DNA of 29,860 nucleotides, from positions 1 to 29,860 of IMG/VR virus record IMGVR_UViG_3300042939_000765. One strand, 5' to 3'. The number at the start of each line of letters is the position of its first letter. The stretch's first letter is position 1. Origin of the DNA: a virus. Of this stretch, positions 620 through 10,372 are shown piece after piece. Position numbers and translations under genes: made by a program. Under the pieces are notes generated by a model. The model saw only the letters and a program-made list of their open reading frames with translations, ran no database searches and was not told where the DNA came from.

Positions 620-1879
620 CTACCAAGTTATTAAATGCGTCAATCCTTGTTTCTCCGCATATTCACGCACGGATATTGGTGAGATATTAAACCACTCCTC
701 GGCGGCGCGTTTACTCACCAAGGCTACGTAGTGTTTTGATAACATCTTGATCGAGGTTCCTCCGTGGTAGGCGGTGTTGTGTGGATTCTGATAAGATGCG
801 AGGTGATAACTCAAGAACGAATGTCGGAGGATATTGTCCTCCCATCCGGCTAGACCGACTTGCTTGAGCTTGGCTACGTCACGGGAAATGTTTCCGACTT
901 TGCGCTCGGTCATTATCGGGCCGTAATCAGGGAAGGTCGCGAGGTTGAGCCATTCGAAGAGACAATCAGGGGTGAAGATGTGCCGCGGCAGAGTCTTTTT
1001 GGCGATCACCCGGTCAACGTGCGCGGTCTTCTCCTCAAAGTTGAAGTGCGCTTTGGTCATCTGAGTGCATTCGTTGCGTCTTGCCCCGCCGAACGCCATT
1101 GTCGCGACATAGGCTAATTCCTTGGGTTTCACTACGATGAGGAACCTCATCAACTGCTCCGGCGTGAATACAGGGTAGTTACCTTCCGGTATCGCCATGA
1201 GCGTGACTTGGTCGGCGATCGTCTGGTGGTCATCGGCGAGGTAGCGCCGTTTTTTGGCGAAGTTCTCGATCGTCCGGTAAAAGCTCAGAAACTTGTGTTG
1301 CGTGTAGGGCGCGAAATGAGATTCCCGCAGCCGACGCTCTAGGCTTTGTGGAGTGATCTGCTGCATCGTCTCTTTCGGGAACCACGACTTCAAGGTTCTC
1401 ACTTGGGAATTGACCGTCTGCTCGTGGTCTTTCGAGAGCTTCTTTATCTTGATGTCGGCGACCAACTCATTGCAGATCTCGCCAAAGTTCTTCCCCTTCG
1501 AACTCAAAACGTGGAACTTGCGGAAGAACTCACACGCCTTGTGAAGCTGGTGGGGGGCCACGCTTTTCTCGCACTCCAATAAGTAGACCAAACGGGCCGC
1601 ATCGACCTTGGTGTGTTCTCCCTCGGCGCGGGAGAGGTGCCGGACCTTCTGCTTGGCCAATTCGATCGCTTCTTCCTTTTTGGCACGGGTGACCCGGAAG
1701 CGTTTGTCTCCGACATGCCACGTCAAGCGGTAGGCTGGGTAGCGCCCGGTGGATATTGCGTTTATCTTAACGACTGAATCTCCCAGCCGAACTTCTGTGC
1801 CTTTTTTCGATTCAAGAACCTTCAAATTGTCCATGTGGATTATGACCAGAATTGGGTCGAAACGTTCAAAAATCGACAT
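620..1879 (-). CDS. int: Tyrosine recombinase / phage integrase (419 aa)
   Basis: Catalyses site-specific integration and excision of phage DNA. The catalytic domain is at about residues 235-405. Arg-I is in GGARRNE (R267), the beta-hairpin lysine is K294 or K295, box II is NILRHSF (R352, H353), a later histidine lies in AYHGGTS (H372), and the nucleophile is in SKHYVALV (Y384). The usual HxxR histidine is N349. The core-binding SAM-like region is at about residues 130-225. The length is normal for the family. The LRHSF...HYVALV...AEEWFNISP end resembles verrucomicrobial and planctomycetal integrases, which suggests the host group. The start is uncertain: Met16 (ATG at 1834) is an alternative, and neither start has a convincing ribosome-binding site. 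The gene points away from the structural operon, with the candidate attP just upstream of it. Confidence 0.9.
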   Translation of the reverse strand: MSIFERFDPILVIIHMDNLKVLESKKGTEVRLGDSVVKINAISTGRYPAYRLTWHVGDKRFRVTRAKKEEAIELAKQKVRHLSRAEGEHTKVDAARLVYLLECEKSVAPHQLHKACEFFRKFHVLSSKGKNFGEICNELVADIKIKKLSKDHEQTVNSQVRTLKSWFPKETMQQITPQSLERRLRESHFAPYTQHKFLSFYRTIENFAKKRRYLADDHQTIADQVTLMAIPEGNYPVFTPEQLMRFLIVVKPKELAYVATMAFGGARRNECTQMTKAHFNFEEKTAHVDRVIAKKTLPRHIFTPDCLFEWLNLATFPDYGPIMTERKVGNISRDVAKLKQVGLAGWEDNILRHSFLSYHLASYQNPHNTAYHGGTSIKMLSKHYVALVSKRAAEEWFNISPISVREYAEKQGLTHLITW

Positions 1880-2067: not shown

Positions 2068-3843
2068 ATGTCTTTGATTTTAGTGAAATCCGGCATTCAA
2101 CCGCCGGCCGGTTCGTTCCAACGCTACGGCGCTTGGTGGCCTCAACACACTGCCGACTGGGCGATTGAGTTGTTTTGTTTCCGTGGGATGGACACCGCGG
2201 GGATGGAGGTTCTTTCGAAGGAGCAGCACTTCAAAAACGCCGCCCAGATGTTCTTCCACAAGAAATCGGAGAATTTTGTCTGGCACCCGTGGGCGGAAGA
2301 CATGTTGTTCGAATGTTGCCACAACAAGTTCGTCGGTTTCGCGGGTTGTGGTTCGAGCGGTAAGTCGGAATTCATGGCGGTTTGGGCATTACTCAACTGG
2401 TTGTCCGCGCCGTTCCACACCCTCTCACTCGTCACGAGCACGAGTATTCGCGATGCGAAGAAGCGCGTTTGGGGTGCGATTCAACGCTACTGGCCCTGCA
2501 TCAAGGCGGTGGCTCCGGGTAAGCTGGCCGACACGCCGACCCCGGCGATCTATGCCATCAAGAATGGAGAGCGTCTTGAACAGGCTGGTGTGTATCTCAT
2601 TCCGGCCGAGGCGAAGAAGACCTCGGAGGTGACGGGCAAAATGAGAGGCATGAAAGCTCACCGCGTCATCGTGGCGGCGGACGAGTTGAGTGAGCTTGGC
2701 CATGCCTTCCTCGATACCGCCCTTTCGAACCTTTCCAACAACCCCGAGCTTCACATCTGCGCGGCGGCGAACCCTGTCTCTTACTACGATCCTTTCGGCC
2801 GCTTCGTTGAGCCGACGAATGGGTGGGGGAGTATTTCGGTCAATGACGAAAGGTGGGAGACGAAGATCGGCGGGGTCTGTCTGCACCTCGATGCCCTCAA
2901 GAATCCGAACTACTTGGCCGGCGAGAACAAGTGGCCGATCCAGAAGTGGGAGAAGATCGACGAGGCCCGTGAGCGACTCGGTGAGGACAACCCGATCTTT
3001 TGGAGAGACTACAGAGGTTTTTGGCCACCGCAGGCGGTATCGAAAGCCATCTACTCCGAGGCCGAGATCATCCGCTTCCAAGCCGATCAGAAGCCAATCT
3101 GGAGGGGCCGTGTCGAACGTATTGTCGGCATCGACCCCTCCTTTGTGAGCGGCGGGGATAGGTGTGTCATTTATTTGGGATCGTTTGGCCAGAACAAAGA
3201 TGGGGTCGATCAGGTTTCCTTCGACGAGTTCCACTACCTCGACGAAGAGGCCAGCAACCCCGAGCCGCGCACCTTCCAGATCGCCAAGAAAATCAAAGAC
3301 ATCGTGGTCAAAGCTGGGGTGCCGTGGCGCAACATCGGCGTGGACGTGACGGGCGGTGGCGTGCCGTTCTGCGATGCGATGGCTACGGTCTGCGGATCGA
3401 ATGAGTTCCTCCGGGTCCACTTCGGCGGTGCTCCTTCGGGGCGATCACTCTCCGCTTACGATGCGACCGCGGCCCAGGACAAATACGTCAACCGCGTCAC
3501 TGAGTTGTGGTTCGGCGCGAAGGAGTTTTTGCAGAATGGTCAGTTGCGGGGGATTGGGCCGGACTTGGCCCGCGAGATGACCAGCCGGAACTACGACACG
3601 CGGAAGTCCGGATCGATGAAGGTCGTCGTTGAGAGCAAGACCGATATGAAGGCCAGGATCGGCCGATCGCCCGACGTGGCGGATGCCGCCTTCGTCATGC
3701 TCGATGTCGTCCGCGAGCGGTTCGGGCTGCGTCCTCCGCAGGAAGGTGGCAGCGGCAAGCGTGGCGGGATGACGAGTTGGAAGAAAACCATGACCTCGAA
3801 GTTCAGTCCTCGGCGGTCAGGCTATTTGTTGACCAGCGCATAA
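2068..3843 (+). CDS. terL: Terminase large subunit (591 aa)
   Basis: The ATPase-nuclease that drives genome packaging into the prohead and cuts the concatemer. The N-terminal motor has a Walker A GCGSSGKS (residues 93-100) and a Walker B RVIVAADE ending D205-E206. CAAANP at 231-236 may be the coupling motif. The C-terminal RNase H-like nuclease has acidic residues in GIDPS (D356), GVDVTG (D426) and SPDVADA (D536 or D539). The length is typical. It is the first plus-strand gene after the integrase and attP region; no small terminase gene was recognised beside it. No clear ribosome-binding site precedes the ATG at 2068, which lies directly after the 2037-2049 repeat. It overlaps the next reading frame by a TAATG. 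Confidence 0.93.
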   Translation: MSLILVKSGIQPPAGSFQRYGAWWPQHTADWAIELFCFRGMDTAGMEVLSKEQHFKNAAQMFFHKKSENFVWHPWAEDMLFECCHNKFVGFAGCGSSGKSEFMAVWALLNWLSAPFHTLSLVTSTSIRDAKKRVWGAIQRYWPCIKAVAPGKLADTPTPAIYAIKNGERLEQAGVYLIPAEAKKTSEVTGKMRGMKAHRVIVAADELSELGHAFLDTALSNLSNNPELHICAAANPVSYYDPFGRFVEPTNGWGSISVNDERWETKIGGVCLHLDALKNPNYLAGENKWPIQKWEKIDEARERLGEDNPIFWRDYRGFWPPQAVSKAIYSEAEIIRFQADQKPIWRGRVERIVGIDPSFVSGGDRCVIYLGSFGQNKDGVDQVSFDEFHYLDEEASNPEPRTFQIAKKIKDIVVKAGVPWRNIGVDVTGGGVPFCDAMATVCGSNEFLRVHFGGAPSGRSLSAYDATAAQDKYVNRVTELWFGAKEFLQNGQLRGIGPDLAREMTSRNYDTRKSGSMKVVVESKTDMKARIGRSPDVADAAFVMLDVVRERFGLRPPQEGGSGKRGGMTSWKKTMTSKFSPRRSGYLLTSA

Positions 3844-5730: not shown

Positions 5731-5745
5731 TATAATAACCGCACA
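5731..5745 (+). promoter_or_regulatory. TATAAT / TAATAACCGC element directly before a start codon
   Basis: A perfect TATAAT (5731-5736) overlaps the TAATAACCGC element (5733-5742) and ends 9 bases before the ATG at 5746. A weak -35 candidate (TTGGTT, 5708-5713) lies 17 bases upstream. If it is a promoter, the transcript would have almost no leader. Confidence 0.45.
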
Positions 5746-5934
5746 ATGTCGTATCGCGTCACAGTTGAGGAGTTGCGCAAGAATGCACCACCGTTGCGGA
5801 TGATTTCGCTGACCGCACCGGATTGGTTGCAGGCGGTCGATGCGGTGACCGAGGTGCTCTCGAAGGAGGACACGCTCTTTCAGGAGGACGAGAAGGATTT
5901 TATGGAGCCGGACGAACCTCGCGATTGGTCGTGA
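5746..5934 (+). CDS. Small hypothetical protein (62 aa)
   Basis: The ATG at 5746 was chosen because it directly follows the TATAAT/TAATAACC element; the same frame is open further upstream but overlaps the previous gene. The protein has a basic start (MSYRVTVEELRKN), a central SLTAPDWLQAVDAVTEVLSK helix-like stretch and a very acidic C-terminus (EDEKDFMEPDEPRDW). No domain is recognised. It overlaps the start of the glycosyltransferase gene as GTGA, suggesting translational coupling and perhaps a partner role. Acidic small proteins like this may be regulators or protein-binding factors, but that is only a guess. Confidence 0.6.
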   Translation: MSYRVTVEELRKNAPPLRMISLTAPDWLQAVDAVTEVLSKEDTLFQEDEKDFMEPDEPRDWS

Positions 5935-6899
5935 ATTATTTTCATTCTGGAGATCTGGGCGATGTCCTTTACGCCCTTCCGTCCATCCGAGAGTTGGGCG
6001 TCGGGGATCTTTATCTCAACTCGCGGCCTTGGACCGCGAAGATGACGCCCGAGCGGGCGGCGGTGTTGCGTCCACTCCTTGAAGCCCAAGACTATGTCGG
6101 CGAGGTCATTCACGGAGACGCGCCGGCCAACGAGTATTTCGTCAACTTCTCCACGTTCCGTAACGGTGGGTTGATTTACGGGGTCAGCCTCATGGAACTG
6201 CAAAGCGATTGGGTCAATGCCAACGCATCACCGGAACCGTGGTTAAAAGTTTCCCCCTCGGCGCGGGCTTCGGGGCGTGTGGTGTGTCACCGCAGCCCGC
6301 GCTACCACAATCCGTATTTTCGCTGGGATCTGGTCGGTGAATCCCTCGGCACGAAGATGCTTTTCGTTGGGATGCCGCACGAGGTCGAGGAGTTGCGTCG
6401 AGTCACCAAGGTCCATGCCGAGTATGCGATCACCCAGAACTACCTCGAACTCGCCAAACTGATCGCGGGCGCGGATCTCTTCATCGGCAACCAGTCGAGC
6501 CCGATGGCGTTGGCGATTGGCCTTGGGGTGCCTTTTATCCAAGAGACCTGTCTTTGGACGCCAGACTGTCTCTACCCGCGCAAAGAGGGTTTCTATTGTT
6601 ATGACGGTGGGATATCCCACCTTAACATCCCGCCTTTTGAACCCCCGCCGGATGTCGATCGTAACGCGCTTCCTCCGGGCGGCTGGCAGGTGATCTCCCG
6701 TCGTAGTGGTGAGCGGGTCACCTTCAAGAGCCACCGGCTTGCCACACGTCATCTTTACCGCACCGACCGCTACCACTCCGAGGAAGAAGCCGCCCAAGAG
6801 GTCGACCGGCAGAATGTGCTCCGGGTCCCGCATCTGGTCCGGCGCAACTCGACTTTTGAAATCTTCGGTAAGGTGGCCCCGCTAGTTTCTGCGTTTTGA
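5931..6899 (+). CDS. Glycosyltransferase, GT-B fold, GT9 (heptosyltransferase)-like (322 aa)
   Basis: I chose the GTG at 5931, which overlaps the previous stop (GTGA); an upstream in-frame start would add a low-quality stretch covering the previous gene. The N-terminus FHSGDLGDVLYALPSIREL matches the GDxGDxxYALPxIR opening of GT9-like proteins. The C-terminal nucleotide-sugar site is suggested by LIAGADLFIGNQSSPMALAI and GLGVPFIQE (about residues 172-205). GT9 enzymes transfer heptose or similar sugars to lipopolysaccharide. In a phage it could modify host surface glycans, virion proteins or DNA. It is embedded between virion genes and coupled (TGATG) to a nuclease gene. The fold is convincing; donor and acceptor are unknown. 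Confidence 0.75.
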   Translation: MNYFHSGDLGDVLYALPSIRELGVGDLYLNSRPWTAKMTPERAAVLRPLLEAQDYVGEVIHGDAPANEYFVNFSTFRNGGLIYGVSLMELQSDWVNANASPEPWLKVSPSARASGRVVCHRSPRYHNPYFRWDLVGESLGTKMLFVGMPHEVEELRRVTKVHAEYAITQNYLELAKLIAGADLFIGNQSSPMALAIGLGVPFIQETCLWTPDCLYPRKEGFYCYDGGISHLNIPPFEPPPDVDRNALPPGGWQVISRRSGERVTFKSHRLATRHLYRTDRYHSEEEAAQEVDRQNVLRVPHLVRRNSTFEIFGKVAPLVSAF

Positions 6900-7288
6900 T
6901 GAATTCCTGTCAAAAGGGCACTCACTCCGAGATTCTTTTCTGCGCTGAAGCGGGGCGGAGAGGGTGGGGTATCTATGTGCCTTTTGGCCACGCTCAAATG
7001 GCGGATGTCATTCTTTTCAAGCCGCCCCACAATCCGATCACGGTGCAAGTGAAGACCGCCACTTACGAGCGGGATAAAGACCGCTACGGCGTATCTTTGT
7101 CCCGCGGGCTCGATAAGGCAGTATACACAAGCGGCGACTTTGCCGTTCTTGCCGCGTGGATTCCGGAGGCGGACAAGTTTGTTCTTTGGCGATTTGACGA
7201 GATCGCCGACCGGAAGAAAATTAGCTACACGCCGCGGCTTCATCGTCAGCCGGATAATTGGGAACTTCTCGACAGTGTGCTAAAGTAA
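6899..7288 (+). CDS. PD-(D/E)XK nuclease, I-Ssp6803I-like (129 aa)
   Basis: The ATG at 6899 overlaps the glycosyltransferase stop (TGATG). The protein shows the order of the PD-(D/E)XK_5 family (type member: group I intron homing endonuclease I-Ssp6803I): KGTHSEILF (E11), a GW segment followed by IYVPFGHAQMADVILF (D36), and TVQVKTA (Q50, K52), the family's D...QxK active site. The length is near that family's usual size. Such enzymes cut DNA as oligomers. Here it stands alone between two glycosyltransferase genes, with no visible intron. It may be a free-standing homing endonuclease or have been recruited for DNA processing. Family assignment is good; the target is unknown. Confidence 0.75.
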   Translation: MNSCQKGTHSEILFCAEAGRRGWGIYVPFGHAQMADVILFKPPHNPITVQVKTATYERDKDRYGVSLSRGLDKAVYTSGDFAVLAAWIPEADKFVLWRFDEIADRKKISYTPRLHRQPDNWELLDSVLK

Positions 7289-7299
7289 TAACTCCATAA
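7286..7299 (+). promoter_or_regulatory. TAATAACTCCAT element
   Basis: TAATAACTCCATAA follows as, and overlaps, the stop codon of the nuclease gene and ends at the ATG at 7299. It is one copy of the recurring intergenic element; no Shine-Dalgarno sequence is present. Confidence 0.4.
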
Positions 7300-8054
7300 T
7301 GCTCCTCGTCCTTCCTGTCTCTCAAGCCGACCTGAAGCTCGCCACCGCTCTGGCTGGCCATCTGGAGCTATTGGGCGGCTTGTCGCGCCACAAGCTCTTG
7401 GTCGTCGGCACCCTCCAGACCAAGGACGAGGCGGCGGCTCTGAAAGAGAAATTGGCCCCGCTCTTCGCCTCGGCCGACCTCTTTGTGCCTGATTCCGAGT
7501 GTGAACTCGGCTGGCCCCAGTCGGCCAACCATCTGTGGGCGCGGACGGTGCGTCATCTCCAGCACAGCGGGAATAAGGACGCTTGGTATTGGTTCGAGGC
7601 CGACAACACGCCGATCCGCGAGGATTGGCTCGATGCGATTGAGACCGAATACAACCAAGCGCAAAAGCCCTTTCTGGGAGCCGTCCAGCCGACCCGGATG
7701 CTGGACCGCAAGACCCGTGAGTTCGTCAAAGTCGACGGCGAGCACGTCATTGGGACGTGCGTTTATCCGGCCGACTTCCATGCCCGCTCGCTCCTCTGGA
7801 GCTATGTCCGTCTCGATGATGGCCCGAATGTCGAACCCTTCGACGTGTATCTCCGCCATGAGATGCGTCCGAACACGGCGGTCTCCAAGCTCATCCACAA
7901 CAACTGGCGGACGAAGAACTACGAGATCGGACCGAAGGGCGAGATCTACTGCGACCCGATCGATGACCTCTCGGTCTACGGACCCGTGCCGGCCGATGCC
8001 GCTGTCGTCCACGGCTGTAAAGACGGCTCGCTCATAGAAGCCCTGCAAAAATGA
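7299..8054 (+). CDS. Putative glycosyltransferase, GT-A-like (251 aa)
   Basis: The N-terminus reads LLVLPVSQADL and later RHKLLVVGTLQT, like the first strands of a Rossmann-type nucleotide-sugar domain. DAWYWFEADNTPIREDWLDA (about residues 94-113) resembles the metal-binding acidic motif and following segment of GT-A enzymes; the usual DxD would be replaced by EAD. Later KPFLGAVQPTRM and HVIGTCVYPADFHARS fit a catalytic core of this kind. It is preceded by the TAATAACT element and overlaps the portal start by ATGA. Together with the GT9-like gene upstream it would make a two-enzyme glycosylation island. Confidence is moderate, since the motif is not canonical. Confidence 0.6.
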   Translation: MLLVLPVSQADLKLATALAGHLELLGGLSRHKLLVVGTLQTKDEAAALKEKLAPLFASADLFVPDSECELGWPQSANHLWARTVRHLQHSGNKDAWYWFEADNTPIREDWLDAIETEYNQAQKPFLGAVQPTRMLDRKTREFVKVDGEHVIGTCVYPADFHARSLLWSYVRLDDGPNVEPFDVYLRHEMRPNTAVSKLIHNNWRTKNYEIGPKGEIYCDPIDDLSVYGPVPADAAVVHGCKDGSLIEALQK

Positions 8055-10372
8055 CAAATTCCGAACTAGCTCCTCTCGAAATCCTCGGCCTCGACGAAAA
8101 CGGAAAGGCTCCGAAGATGCGCGTCGACAACGTCAATTCGGCCCGCTCGATCTACAAAGCGATCAAGGACTCCGATCAGGGCTCGTCCAAGAACCGCGCC
8201 TTGGTCGACGCCATGTTCAATGGCGCGGCTCCCTTCAATCAGCAGGATCTCATTGAAATGGGGCAGGGGGAACGAACCAACCTCGACTTCGGCGAAGCCG
8301 CTTCACTCAAGGAGCAAGCCCTTTCCGGATACTACGACCTCACCTCCTCGGTCGATGTCATGGCGCGGATCACGATCGACTACGGCTCTCCCGAGCAGCG
8401 CGTCGAGTGGGAGCGGGTCTTGGCCGAAGAATTTCACCGCACGCTCAAAGAGTGGCAGGAGTTTGAATTCAACCACCAGATGCTTGCCGACCAGTTCGTC
8501 TCGCACGGCGTCGGGGTCTGTTATTTCGAAGACGAAGTTGACTGGCGCTGGCGTGTGGCGGGGTTGTCCGAGTTCCGCATTCCGCGTGGAACACGCGCCT
8601 CCGAGTGGGAGATCGAGGTCGCTACGGTCGACCGCGAATACCAAGCCCACCAGCTTTACAAGTTCATCGAAGACCCAGCGGTGGCGAAGGATCTCGGGTG
8701 GAATGTGAAGATGGTCAAAGAGGCACTCATCCGTGCCTGCCGCGAGTCCACGTATCAAGAGGCCGGCGAGTGGGAGAAGCTCGAAGTCGAACTCAAGAAC
8801 AACGATCTTCTCTACGGCAACAGCCGCGGGAAGAAGGTCCATGTCGTCCACATGTGGGTGCGCGAGTTCGACAAGAAAGTCAGCCACTTGATCTTCCTCA
8901 AAGATCCGATCGGTTCGGACGAGAACGCCAAGGAAGAGGATTTCCTTTTCAAGAAGCCAAACCGCTTTGACGCCCCGACGAATTGCTTTGTTACCTTCTG
9001 CTACGGTGTCGGCAACGGCACGTATCACGGCATCCGCGGGCTTGGATACAAGGTGTATCCACACATTCAGCTTTTGAATCGACTCCGCTGCGGCATGGTC
9101 GATGGCGCTTTGCTATCTTCAGCTTTGATCGTCCAGCCCGGCGACAACGGCTCCCGTGCCCTTGAAGACCTGACGCTTTCGTATTACGGCCCTTACGCGC
9201 TGTTCCCTCCAGGGCTGAAGATCGTCGACAAGGCGATCCCTAATTACAATCAGAACCTCATTCCGGTCCTCAACGACCTCACGATGAATATGCAGAACCG
9301 CACCGTCGGCTACCAGTCGCGGGCGGTCACCCCGGATGGTCAGTCGCGGACGGCTTACGAGGTTCGCGCTCAACTCCAGCAGGAAGCGGTGCTCGGTGCG
9401 GCGGCGATCAATCTTTTTTATCACCCTTGGAAACGTCTTCTTCGCGAAGCCTACCGCCGTTTGGTCGCTCGTGATTATGCCGCTAACGAACCCGGCGGTC
9501 GCGAGGCGATCGAGTTCAAGCGTCGTTGTATGGCGCGTGGGGTTCCAGAAGAGGCAATCCACCGTTTCAATACGGTCGAGCCCGTCCGTGCCATCGGCTA
9601 CGGAAGCCCTGGGATGCGGAGTGCGGCGATCGACGAGACCATGCAGATCTTTGGGTCGCTCGATGAAGCCGGCCGGATCAATCTTTTGCGCGATCGCATT
9701 GCCGCTCGTTTCGGTCAGGAAGTGGTCGACCGCTATCTCCCGTCGCCGTCTACGACGCTTCGCACACCGATCGACGACAAGATCGCGCTCCTCGAAAACG
9801 CCACAATGTCGAGTGGCACCGGATTGCCGGTGTCTTCGGGCGAGAACCATTTCATCCACGCTTCGCGTCACCTCACCGCACTCGATGGACTCGACCAAGC
9901 GGTGTCTCAGGGTCAGGCCGAGCCGCAGAACGCGCTCCGTGCTTATCAGACAATGTTGCCGCACTTGGGCGAGCACTTGCAGTTGCTTGCTCCGGATGTG
10001 GCTCGTCAGGACCAGATCGCGCTCATGCGGCAGCGGTTCCAGCAACTCAATGCCTCGGGACAGCGTTTGGGCGACGAGCTTCAAGCCGCCGCCGAGCAGC
10101 AGGCCAAAGCCCAAGAGGCCGAGCAAGCCCGTGCGATCGAAGCCGAGCAAGCCCGCATCGCCCAGATGGAGCAGCAGTTGGCCGAAGCCCAGATGCTTTC
10201 GCCGAAGGCGCAAGCCGACCTCGCCGAACGTCGGGCCAAGTTGGAGATGCAGATCGAGAAGCACCAAGCCGACATGCAAATGAAGCAGGCCAAGGTCATG
10301 CAGGAGCTTGCCCTCAAAGATGCCAAAACCGCCGCCGAGATCACCCCGGCTGCACAACCGATGATGCCATGA
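8051..10372 (+). CDS. Portal protein / head-tail connector (773 aa)
   Basis: Forms the dodecameric ring at one capsid vertex through which DNA is packaged and ejected. Evidence is its size and position, an N-terminal region with helix-rich segments (ARSIYKAIKDSD, LKEQALSGYYDLTSS), a middle beta-rich clip/wing region (VCYFEDEVDWRWRVAGLSEF) and GYQSRAVTPDGQSRTAYEV near residue 430, a pattern seen in podovirus portals. The C-terminus (about residues 667-765) is a long Q/A/E-rich coiled coil that could form the barrel reaching into the capsid. It overlaps the upstream gene (ATGA) and the downstream HNH-like gene (ATGA). No other gene here fits the portal role better. Confidence 0.8.
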   Translation: MTNSELAPLEILGLDENGKAPKMRVDNVNSARSIYKAIKDSDQGSSKNRALVDAMFNGAAPFNQQDLIEMGQGERTNLDFGEAASLKEQALSGYYDLTSSVDVMARITIDYGSPEQRVEWERVLAEEFHRTLKEWQEFEFNHQMLADQFVSHGVGVCYFEDEVDWRWRVAGLSEFRIPRGTRASEWEIEVATVDREYQAHQLYKFIEDPAVAKDLGWNVKMVKEALIRACRESTYQEAGEWEKLEVELKNNDLLYGNSRGKKVHVVHMWVREFDKKVSHLIFLKDPIGSDENAKEEDFLFKKPNRFDAPTNCFVTFCYGVGNGTYHGIRGLGYKVYPHIQLLNRLRCGMVDGALLSSALIVQPGDNGSRALEDLTLSYYGPYALFPPGLKIVDKAIPNYNQNLIPVLNDLTMNMQNRTVGYQSRAVTPDGQSRTAYEVRAQLQQEAVLGAAAINLFYHPWKRLLREAYRRLVARDYAANEPGGREAIEFKRRCMARGVPEEAIHRFNTVEPVRAIGYGSPGMRSAAIDETMQIFGSLDEAGRINLLRDRIAARFGQEVVDRYLPSPSTTLRTPIDDKIALLENATMSSGTGLPVSSGENHFIHASRHLTALDGLDQAVSQGQAEPQNALRAYQTMLPHLGEHLQLLAPDVARQDQIALMRQRFQQLNASGQRLGDELQAAAEQQAKAQEAEQARAIEAEQARIAQMEQQLAEAQMLSPKAQADLAERRAKLEMQIEKHQADMQMKQAKVMQELALKDAKTAAEITPAAQPMMP

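Follow-up and report, generated by a model that had tools for sequence, protein, structure and literature searches.

A free-standing PD-(D/E)XK nuclease of the I-Ssp6803I type in always-filled, allele-swapping slots of two phage lineages

How does a small nuclease related to a group I intron enzyme come to lie between two glycosyltransferase genes of a phage, and what keeps it there? The locus is part of a stretch of viral DNA of 29,860 nucleotides (hereafter the window), the features of which are collected in Table 1. A sequence-only reading had placed the nuclease in the I-Ssp6803I-like PD-(D/E)XK_5 family, and this membership is confirmed: the ORF matches PF11645 (PDDEXK_5) with 28.7 bits, above the curated Pfam cut-off of 26.1 (E 1.5e-6), and phrog_5018 with E 2.8e-12. 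NCBIfam gave no match for the nuclease, and the PADLOC defence-system models gave weak matches only, to a 'homing endonuclease' model (E 0.02 for the window protein). Several homologues score above the window protein against PF11645 (38.4 and 37.5 bits), and some alleles fall under the cut-off. The sole nuclease matched by phmmer in the PDB is I-Ssp6803I (2ost), weakly (E 0.053), and in this alignment D36, Q50 and K52 coincide with the Asp and the QxK motif (QVK in 2ost) of the intron enzyme. The positions E11, D36, Q50 and K52, which had been proposed as catalytic, are invariant in an alignment of 17 diverse homologues, including some from another phage lineage (alignment A4); loss of D36 or K52 in homologues was sought and not seen, and by eye the active-site residues are also kept in alleles of only 22-45% identity.

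An AlphaFold model of the nuclease, built from 17 homologues (pLDDT 84, pTM 0.81), agrees with 2ost_A over the whole chain (Foldseek 2.7e-10; Z 18.7, 1.7 Å, 128 residues), and the fold ranking puts I-Ssp6803I far ahead of SPARDA (Z 11.4) and the Hjc resolvases (Z 10.8). A Holliday junction resolvase of the Hjc/RecU type was ruled out by this ranking, together with the absence of a Pfam Hjc match. Archaeal Hjc resolvases share the PD-(D/E)XK fold and a similar size, but their structural match is far weaker, and the Q-x-K site and the PF11645 match of the window nuclease point to the homing family. The nuclease is devoid of an added DNA-binding domain of the NUMOD type.

I-Ssp6803I is encoded by a group I intron and has in common with the window nuclease its Pfam family, the full-length fold and the aligned D/QxK residues, whereas the identity of the two proteins is only ~20% and the window nuclease is free-standing, phage-borne and coupled to a glycosyltransferase gene. 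All Rfam families, that of group I introns among them, stay below threshold in the window, in agreement with the intronless reading of the sequence, and intron models found no match either there or in the eight relatives searched; hence a group I intron-encoded endonuclease was ruled out. The flanking ORFs are uninterrupted, and the nuclease is a separate ORF between two intact genes, outside any detected intron. The free-standing state is not new but ordinary for the PF11645 family, which includes T7 gp5.3 (1.1e-10). T7 gp5.3, Klebsiella phage KP32 gp22 and other members of phrog_5018 are likewise small free-standing phage proteins encoded in operons, although they share 27-32% identity with the window protein and their genes follow DNA polymerase gene 5 instead of lying between glycosyltransferase genes; T7 gp5.3 is annotated as hypothetical.

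The ATG of the nuclease gene overlaps the stop codon of the upstream gene as TGATG (6897-6901), in line with the coupling to a glycosyltransferase gene proposed earlier. The position between two glycosyltransferases also holds, although the class of both neighbours is less firm: the upstream product matches PF01075 (GT9) with E 0.004 and 16.9 bits, below the Pfam cut-off of 22, and the downstream product (GT), for which no profile match was obtained, is assigned by its predicted fold (AlphaFold pLDDT 88; Foldseek E 1.2e-7 to ColGalT1, COLGALT1). That the genes belong to a head operon is plausible, with the terminase gene located upstream and the 773-aa gene downstream presumed to encode the portal; the latter has no Pfam, PHROG or informative NCBIfam match. 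Relatives of the 773-aa gene at ~40% identity occur in many phages (L067-L085), and their surroundings yielded no match to GT9, GT or the nuclease. The integrase-like gene beside TerL suggests a temperate phage; no relative of the nuclease or of GT was found in bacterial genomes, and the GT search returned no prophage relative. At 5731-5740 of the window, TATAATAACC immediately precedes an ATG, and a similar stretch (CTATAATAACCGCAC) stands before GT in L042; the two are possibly a shared intergenic signal.

Table 1. Coordinates of the genes and codons discussed (positions in the window, or in the locus named)
Feature	Position	Strand	Remarks
Integrase-like gene	620-1879	-	phrog_1, 1e-16; beside TerL
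Terminase large subunit (TerL)	2068-3843	+	phrog_2, E 6.9e-17; upstream of nuclease
GT9-like glycosyltransferase	5931-6899	+	GTG start; left edge of slot; adjoins slot in all 35 spans
PD-(D/E)XK_5 (I-Ssp6803I-like) endonuclease	6899-7288	+	129 aa, intact ORF
E11 codon	6929-6931	+	helix-1 acidic active-site residue; invariant in A4 (17 sequences)
D36 codon	7004-7006	+	metal-binding Asp; invariant; aligned with Asp of 2ost
Q50-V51-K52 codons	7046-7054	+	active-site QxK; Q50 and K52 invariant; aligned with QVK of 2ost
GT-A-fold glycosyltransferase (GT)	7299-8054	+	right edge of slot; predicted fold
Conserved 773-aa gene	8051-10372	+	presumed portal protein; 55 viral loci found with it
Second-lineage slot nucleases after HTH gene	L251:4238-4765; L257:4256-4753; L260:2463-2966		examples from L250-L263
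EndoVII/HNH-type ORF	L241:2992-3525; L242:3421-3954		directly before distant GT-family gene

To see what occupies this position in other phages, relatives were searched in IMG/VR via the nuclease, a nuclease alignment, the portal-like gene, GT and GT9, which yielded 35 distinct GT9-to-GT spans, window included. The slot is filled in all of them: 32 (including the window) carry a PDDEXK_5-like ORF, and the other three (L060, L061 and L088) have an unrelated LAGLIDADG-motif ORF between the GT9 and GT genes. The nucleases of 31 relatives are 47-65% identical to that of the window, and the flanks mostly 78-98%. The three loci with the LAGLIDADG-like ORF are distant (GT9 53-55%, GT 56-60% identity), and this ORF matches PF14528 below the cut-off (E 0.002) and phrog_5046, 'HNH endonuclease', with E-values down to 1.4e-16. 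An empty slot was found in none of the 35 loci, which IMG/VR sampling may still miss, and broken nuclease copies were not encountered, every full-length copy being intact. The GT9 and GT searches are independent of the nuclease, so the missing empty slots are not built into the search. In a phage collection, tblastn with the window protein found no close relative, and queries with other members of the nuclease family returned remote T7-type homologues only.

The nuclease and its flanks have different histories. Between L033 and L024, DNA identity is 91% in GT9, 98% in GT and 96% in the portal-like gene, as opposed to 55% in the first half of the nuclease; it collapses at the nuclease start codon and recovers within the 3' end of the gene, and pS is 0.685 in the nuclease versus 0.24 and 0.08 in the flanks. 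L034 and L042 likewise have flanks of 89, 88 and 90% identity and a first nuclease half of 47%. Closer pairs give a dN/dS of about 0-0.23 for the nuclease, a sign of purifying selection, and because synonymous sites diverge too, the divergence reflects replacement; positive selection was ruled out on this ground and by the low dN/dS. In the nuclease tree, L033 falls with L034/L038 (support 100/99.7), a grouping that GT9 (p 5e-79) and GT (p 6e-45) reject in AU tests of groups named after the alignments had been inspected. The nuclease genealogy thus conflicts with that of the flanks in AU tests and clade support, in the pS contrast and at the junctions, and alleles of the nuclease have been exchanged between phage backbones. 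In several independent pairs, what has been exchanged is little more than the nuclease ORF, and the coupled genes on either side are conserved.

For the window itself, GT groups with L034/L038/L039/L042 (100/99.9). By identity its GT9 is closer to the other group, yet the L034/L038/L039/L042 grouping is still compatible with the GT9 tree (p 0.35). A window composed neatly of two parents that meet at the nuclease was consequently not upheld, and the leaning of the two flanks towards different relatives is suggestive at most. The earlier proposal that the nuclease spreads this whole island draws a little support from this leaning, and is weakened by an exchanged tract that hardly exceeds the ORF and by a GT9 side for which the formal test does not reject a shared grouping. 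Could the nuclease be an accessory passenger that moves by general recombination into a permissive site and does not drive its own spread? Phage genomes are mosaic, the window leans to different relatives on its two sides and the region before GT9 is variable too, all of which such a passenger would explain; the confinement of the tract to the nuclease ORF, catalytic residues that never vary, and a slot repeatedly occupied by nucleases instead of other kinds of genes nevertheless make this account very improbable indeed.

The same pattern recurs in an apparently unrelated phage group, in which relatives of the nuclease lie between an HTH gene and small genes preceding DnaB. A search with the HTH protein only returned 14 loci, all 14 with a PDDEXK_5-like ORF in the slot and none with an empty or broken one. 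Of 12 loci that were compared, 11 show 90-100% identity over the C-terminal 90 aa of the HTH protein against 22-99% in the nucleases; the exception is L261, with a divergent HTH end. L255 and L260 have 100% identity at the HTH end and 28% in the nuclease, and the DNA of L251 and L257 is 93% identical up to the nuclease start, does not align within the gene and is 95% identical thereafter. The overlap at the nuclease start is retained in nearly all of these loci; some alleles are under the Pfam cut-off with the active-site pattern kept, and some have extra N-terminal segments. An always-filled, allele-swapped nuclease slot is hence present in two lineages. Another small PD-(D/E)XK ORF follows DnaB in two phages of the second lineage (L028:8862-9254 and L031:10581-10970); it is Hjc/PDDEXK_15-like (sub-threshold for L028), and these phages therefore carry two different nucleases with that fold.

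Universal presence and a coupled position in the head operon, as well as the proximity to replication genes in the second lineage, are what would be seen if the enzyme were a domesticated core nuclease that the phage needs for DNA processing, be it packaging, replication or recombination, and the HK97-type HNH nucleases near the terminase have been discussed as a precedent for such recruitment (PMC10448857). We consider this quite improbable, as L060, L061 and L088 have an unrelated nuclease in its place, the two lineages place the gene in different modules, a head operon and a replication module, the nearest fold is that of I-Ssp6803I and not of Hjc/RecU, and the alleles are far more divergent than either flank.

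More remote homologues of the nuclease are found after T7-type DNA polymerases, and others among Vibrio phage tRNA genes. T7 gp5.3 is located after DNA polymerase gene 5, and in T3 the gp5.3 at the same position is an HNH nuclease (HNH_3, 4.6e-19), a parallel to the slot described here. Homing of the T3/T7 type has reportedly been treated by Bonocora and Shub in 2009. The only filled/empty pair found concerns a different enzyme of the EndoVII/HNH type, inserted directly before a gene of a distant GT family: the insertion site in L241 and L242 is precise, and eight relatives are empty (L238-L240, L243-L246 and L248). A distant GT homologue is preceded, one gene upstream, by a further HNH ORF in L062, L235, L236 and L237 (e.g., L236:2361-2630); L231, L233 and L234 lack this ORF.

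Homing without introns has been described, including cleavage at a distance from the nuclease gene and marker exclusion (PMC2988022), and so has a single slot with interchanging homing endonuclease gene (HEG) families, including the exchange of HNH-3 by PD-(D/E)XK (PMC10448857). T4 Seg/Mob and ICP1-like HEG-islands resemble the window locus in being single-gene nucleases adjoining essential genes, with different families in one slot and an unchanged context (PMC2988022, PMC10448857). They are mainly of the GIY-YIG, HNH and T5orf172 types, whereas the window enzyme is a PD-(D/E)XK nuclease, and what sets its type apart is the allele series, a slot that was never found empty, and the occurrence in two lineages.

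Computation thus shows the fold, the active site, the slot position and the allele exchange between backbones. Taken together, the nuclease is probably a homing endonuclease, free-standing and of the PD-(D/E)XK (I-Ssp6803I) type, which we infer to spread by cutting co-infecting relatives. When two related phages share one cell, the enzyme would cut the partner DNA in or near the flanking glycosyltransferase and head genes, at a target sequence that is missing or changed in the genome of its own carrier. With the uncut genome as template, repair would then copy the nuclease, with little or much of the flank, into the partner by intronless homing, like that of the T4 Seg enzymes. Filled slots may still act as recipients, since the cut of a free-standing homing enzyme can fall hundreds of bases away from its gene, so that competing alleles, and sometimes a LAGLIDADG-like nuclease, would replace one another. 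Among the options offered by the sequence-only reading, a homing gene is the best-supported, by the unrelated LAGLIDADG-like nuclease in the same slot, the allele swaps between backbones and the horizontal spread into other lineages, while nothing was found in support of a recruited packaging nuclease. Turnover by homing is favoured by the replacement with a LAGLIDADG-like ORF and by the parallel in T7 and T3.

What does not fit a simple cycle of invasion, fixation and decay is the lack of empty or decayed copies. Once purely selfish homing genes are fixed, empty and decayed copies are expected; their absence keeps in play an exclusion role that benefits the phage. The nuclease would in that case be maintained as a weapon, with homing a by-product or absent: each allele would cut co-infecting phages of other types, every phage would need one, and recombination would turn the alleles over. 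Slots filled in 35 of 35 and 14 of 14 loci with copies all intact, and purifying selection (dN/dS about 0-0.23) acting on divergent alleles (22-99%) beside a conserved flank (mostly 90-100%), are in keeping with it, as is the precedent of PhiPA3 gp210, a homing enzyme that cuts the co-infecting phage PhiKZ (PMC11620839). Ordinary homing turnover would account just as well for the T7/T3 parallel and for the replacement by a LAGLIDADG-like ORF, however; no immunity element adjoins the nuclease gene, and nuclease-free loci may exist outside IMG/VR. We regard such a weapon as rather unlikely. Similarly doubtful is the stronger proposition of an exclusion locus, obligatory and polymorphic, with one intact allele per phage, alleles attacking other types in co-infection, and selection for allele diversification in at least two unrelated lineages; were it true, the locus would be a phage counterpart of allele-based incompatibility and not a purely selfish homing gene.

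Among homing enzymes, the PD-(D/E)XK type is known chiefly through a single enzyme of a bacterial intron. The loci described here add a free-standing phage branch whose alleles form natural series: in two slots the nuclease is swapped while its neighbours hardly change. The family is known; the setting, always filled and with swapped alleles, is unusually clear. Paired loci with common flanks and different alleles define donor and recipient sequences for cleavage assays, and the alleles are compact natural enzyme variants for mapping target specificity. Whether such genes persist by homing alone or by helping their phage to win co-infections becomes a testable question. In all relatives examined the slot is occupied, by exchanged versions of the nuclease or by one of quite another kind, and this suggests that phages overwrite one another's DNA by means of this enzyme.
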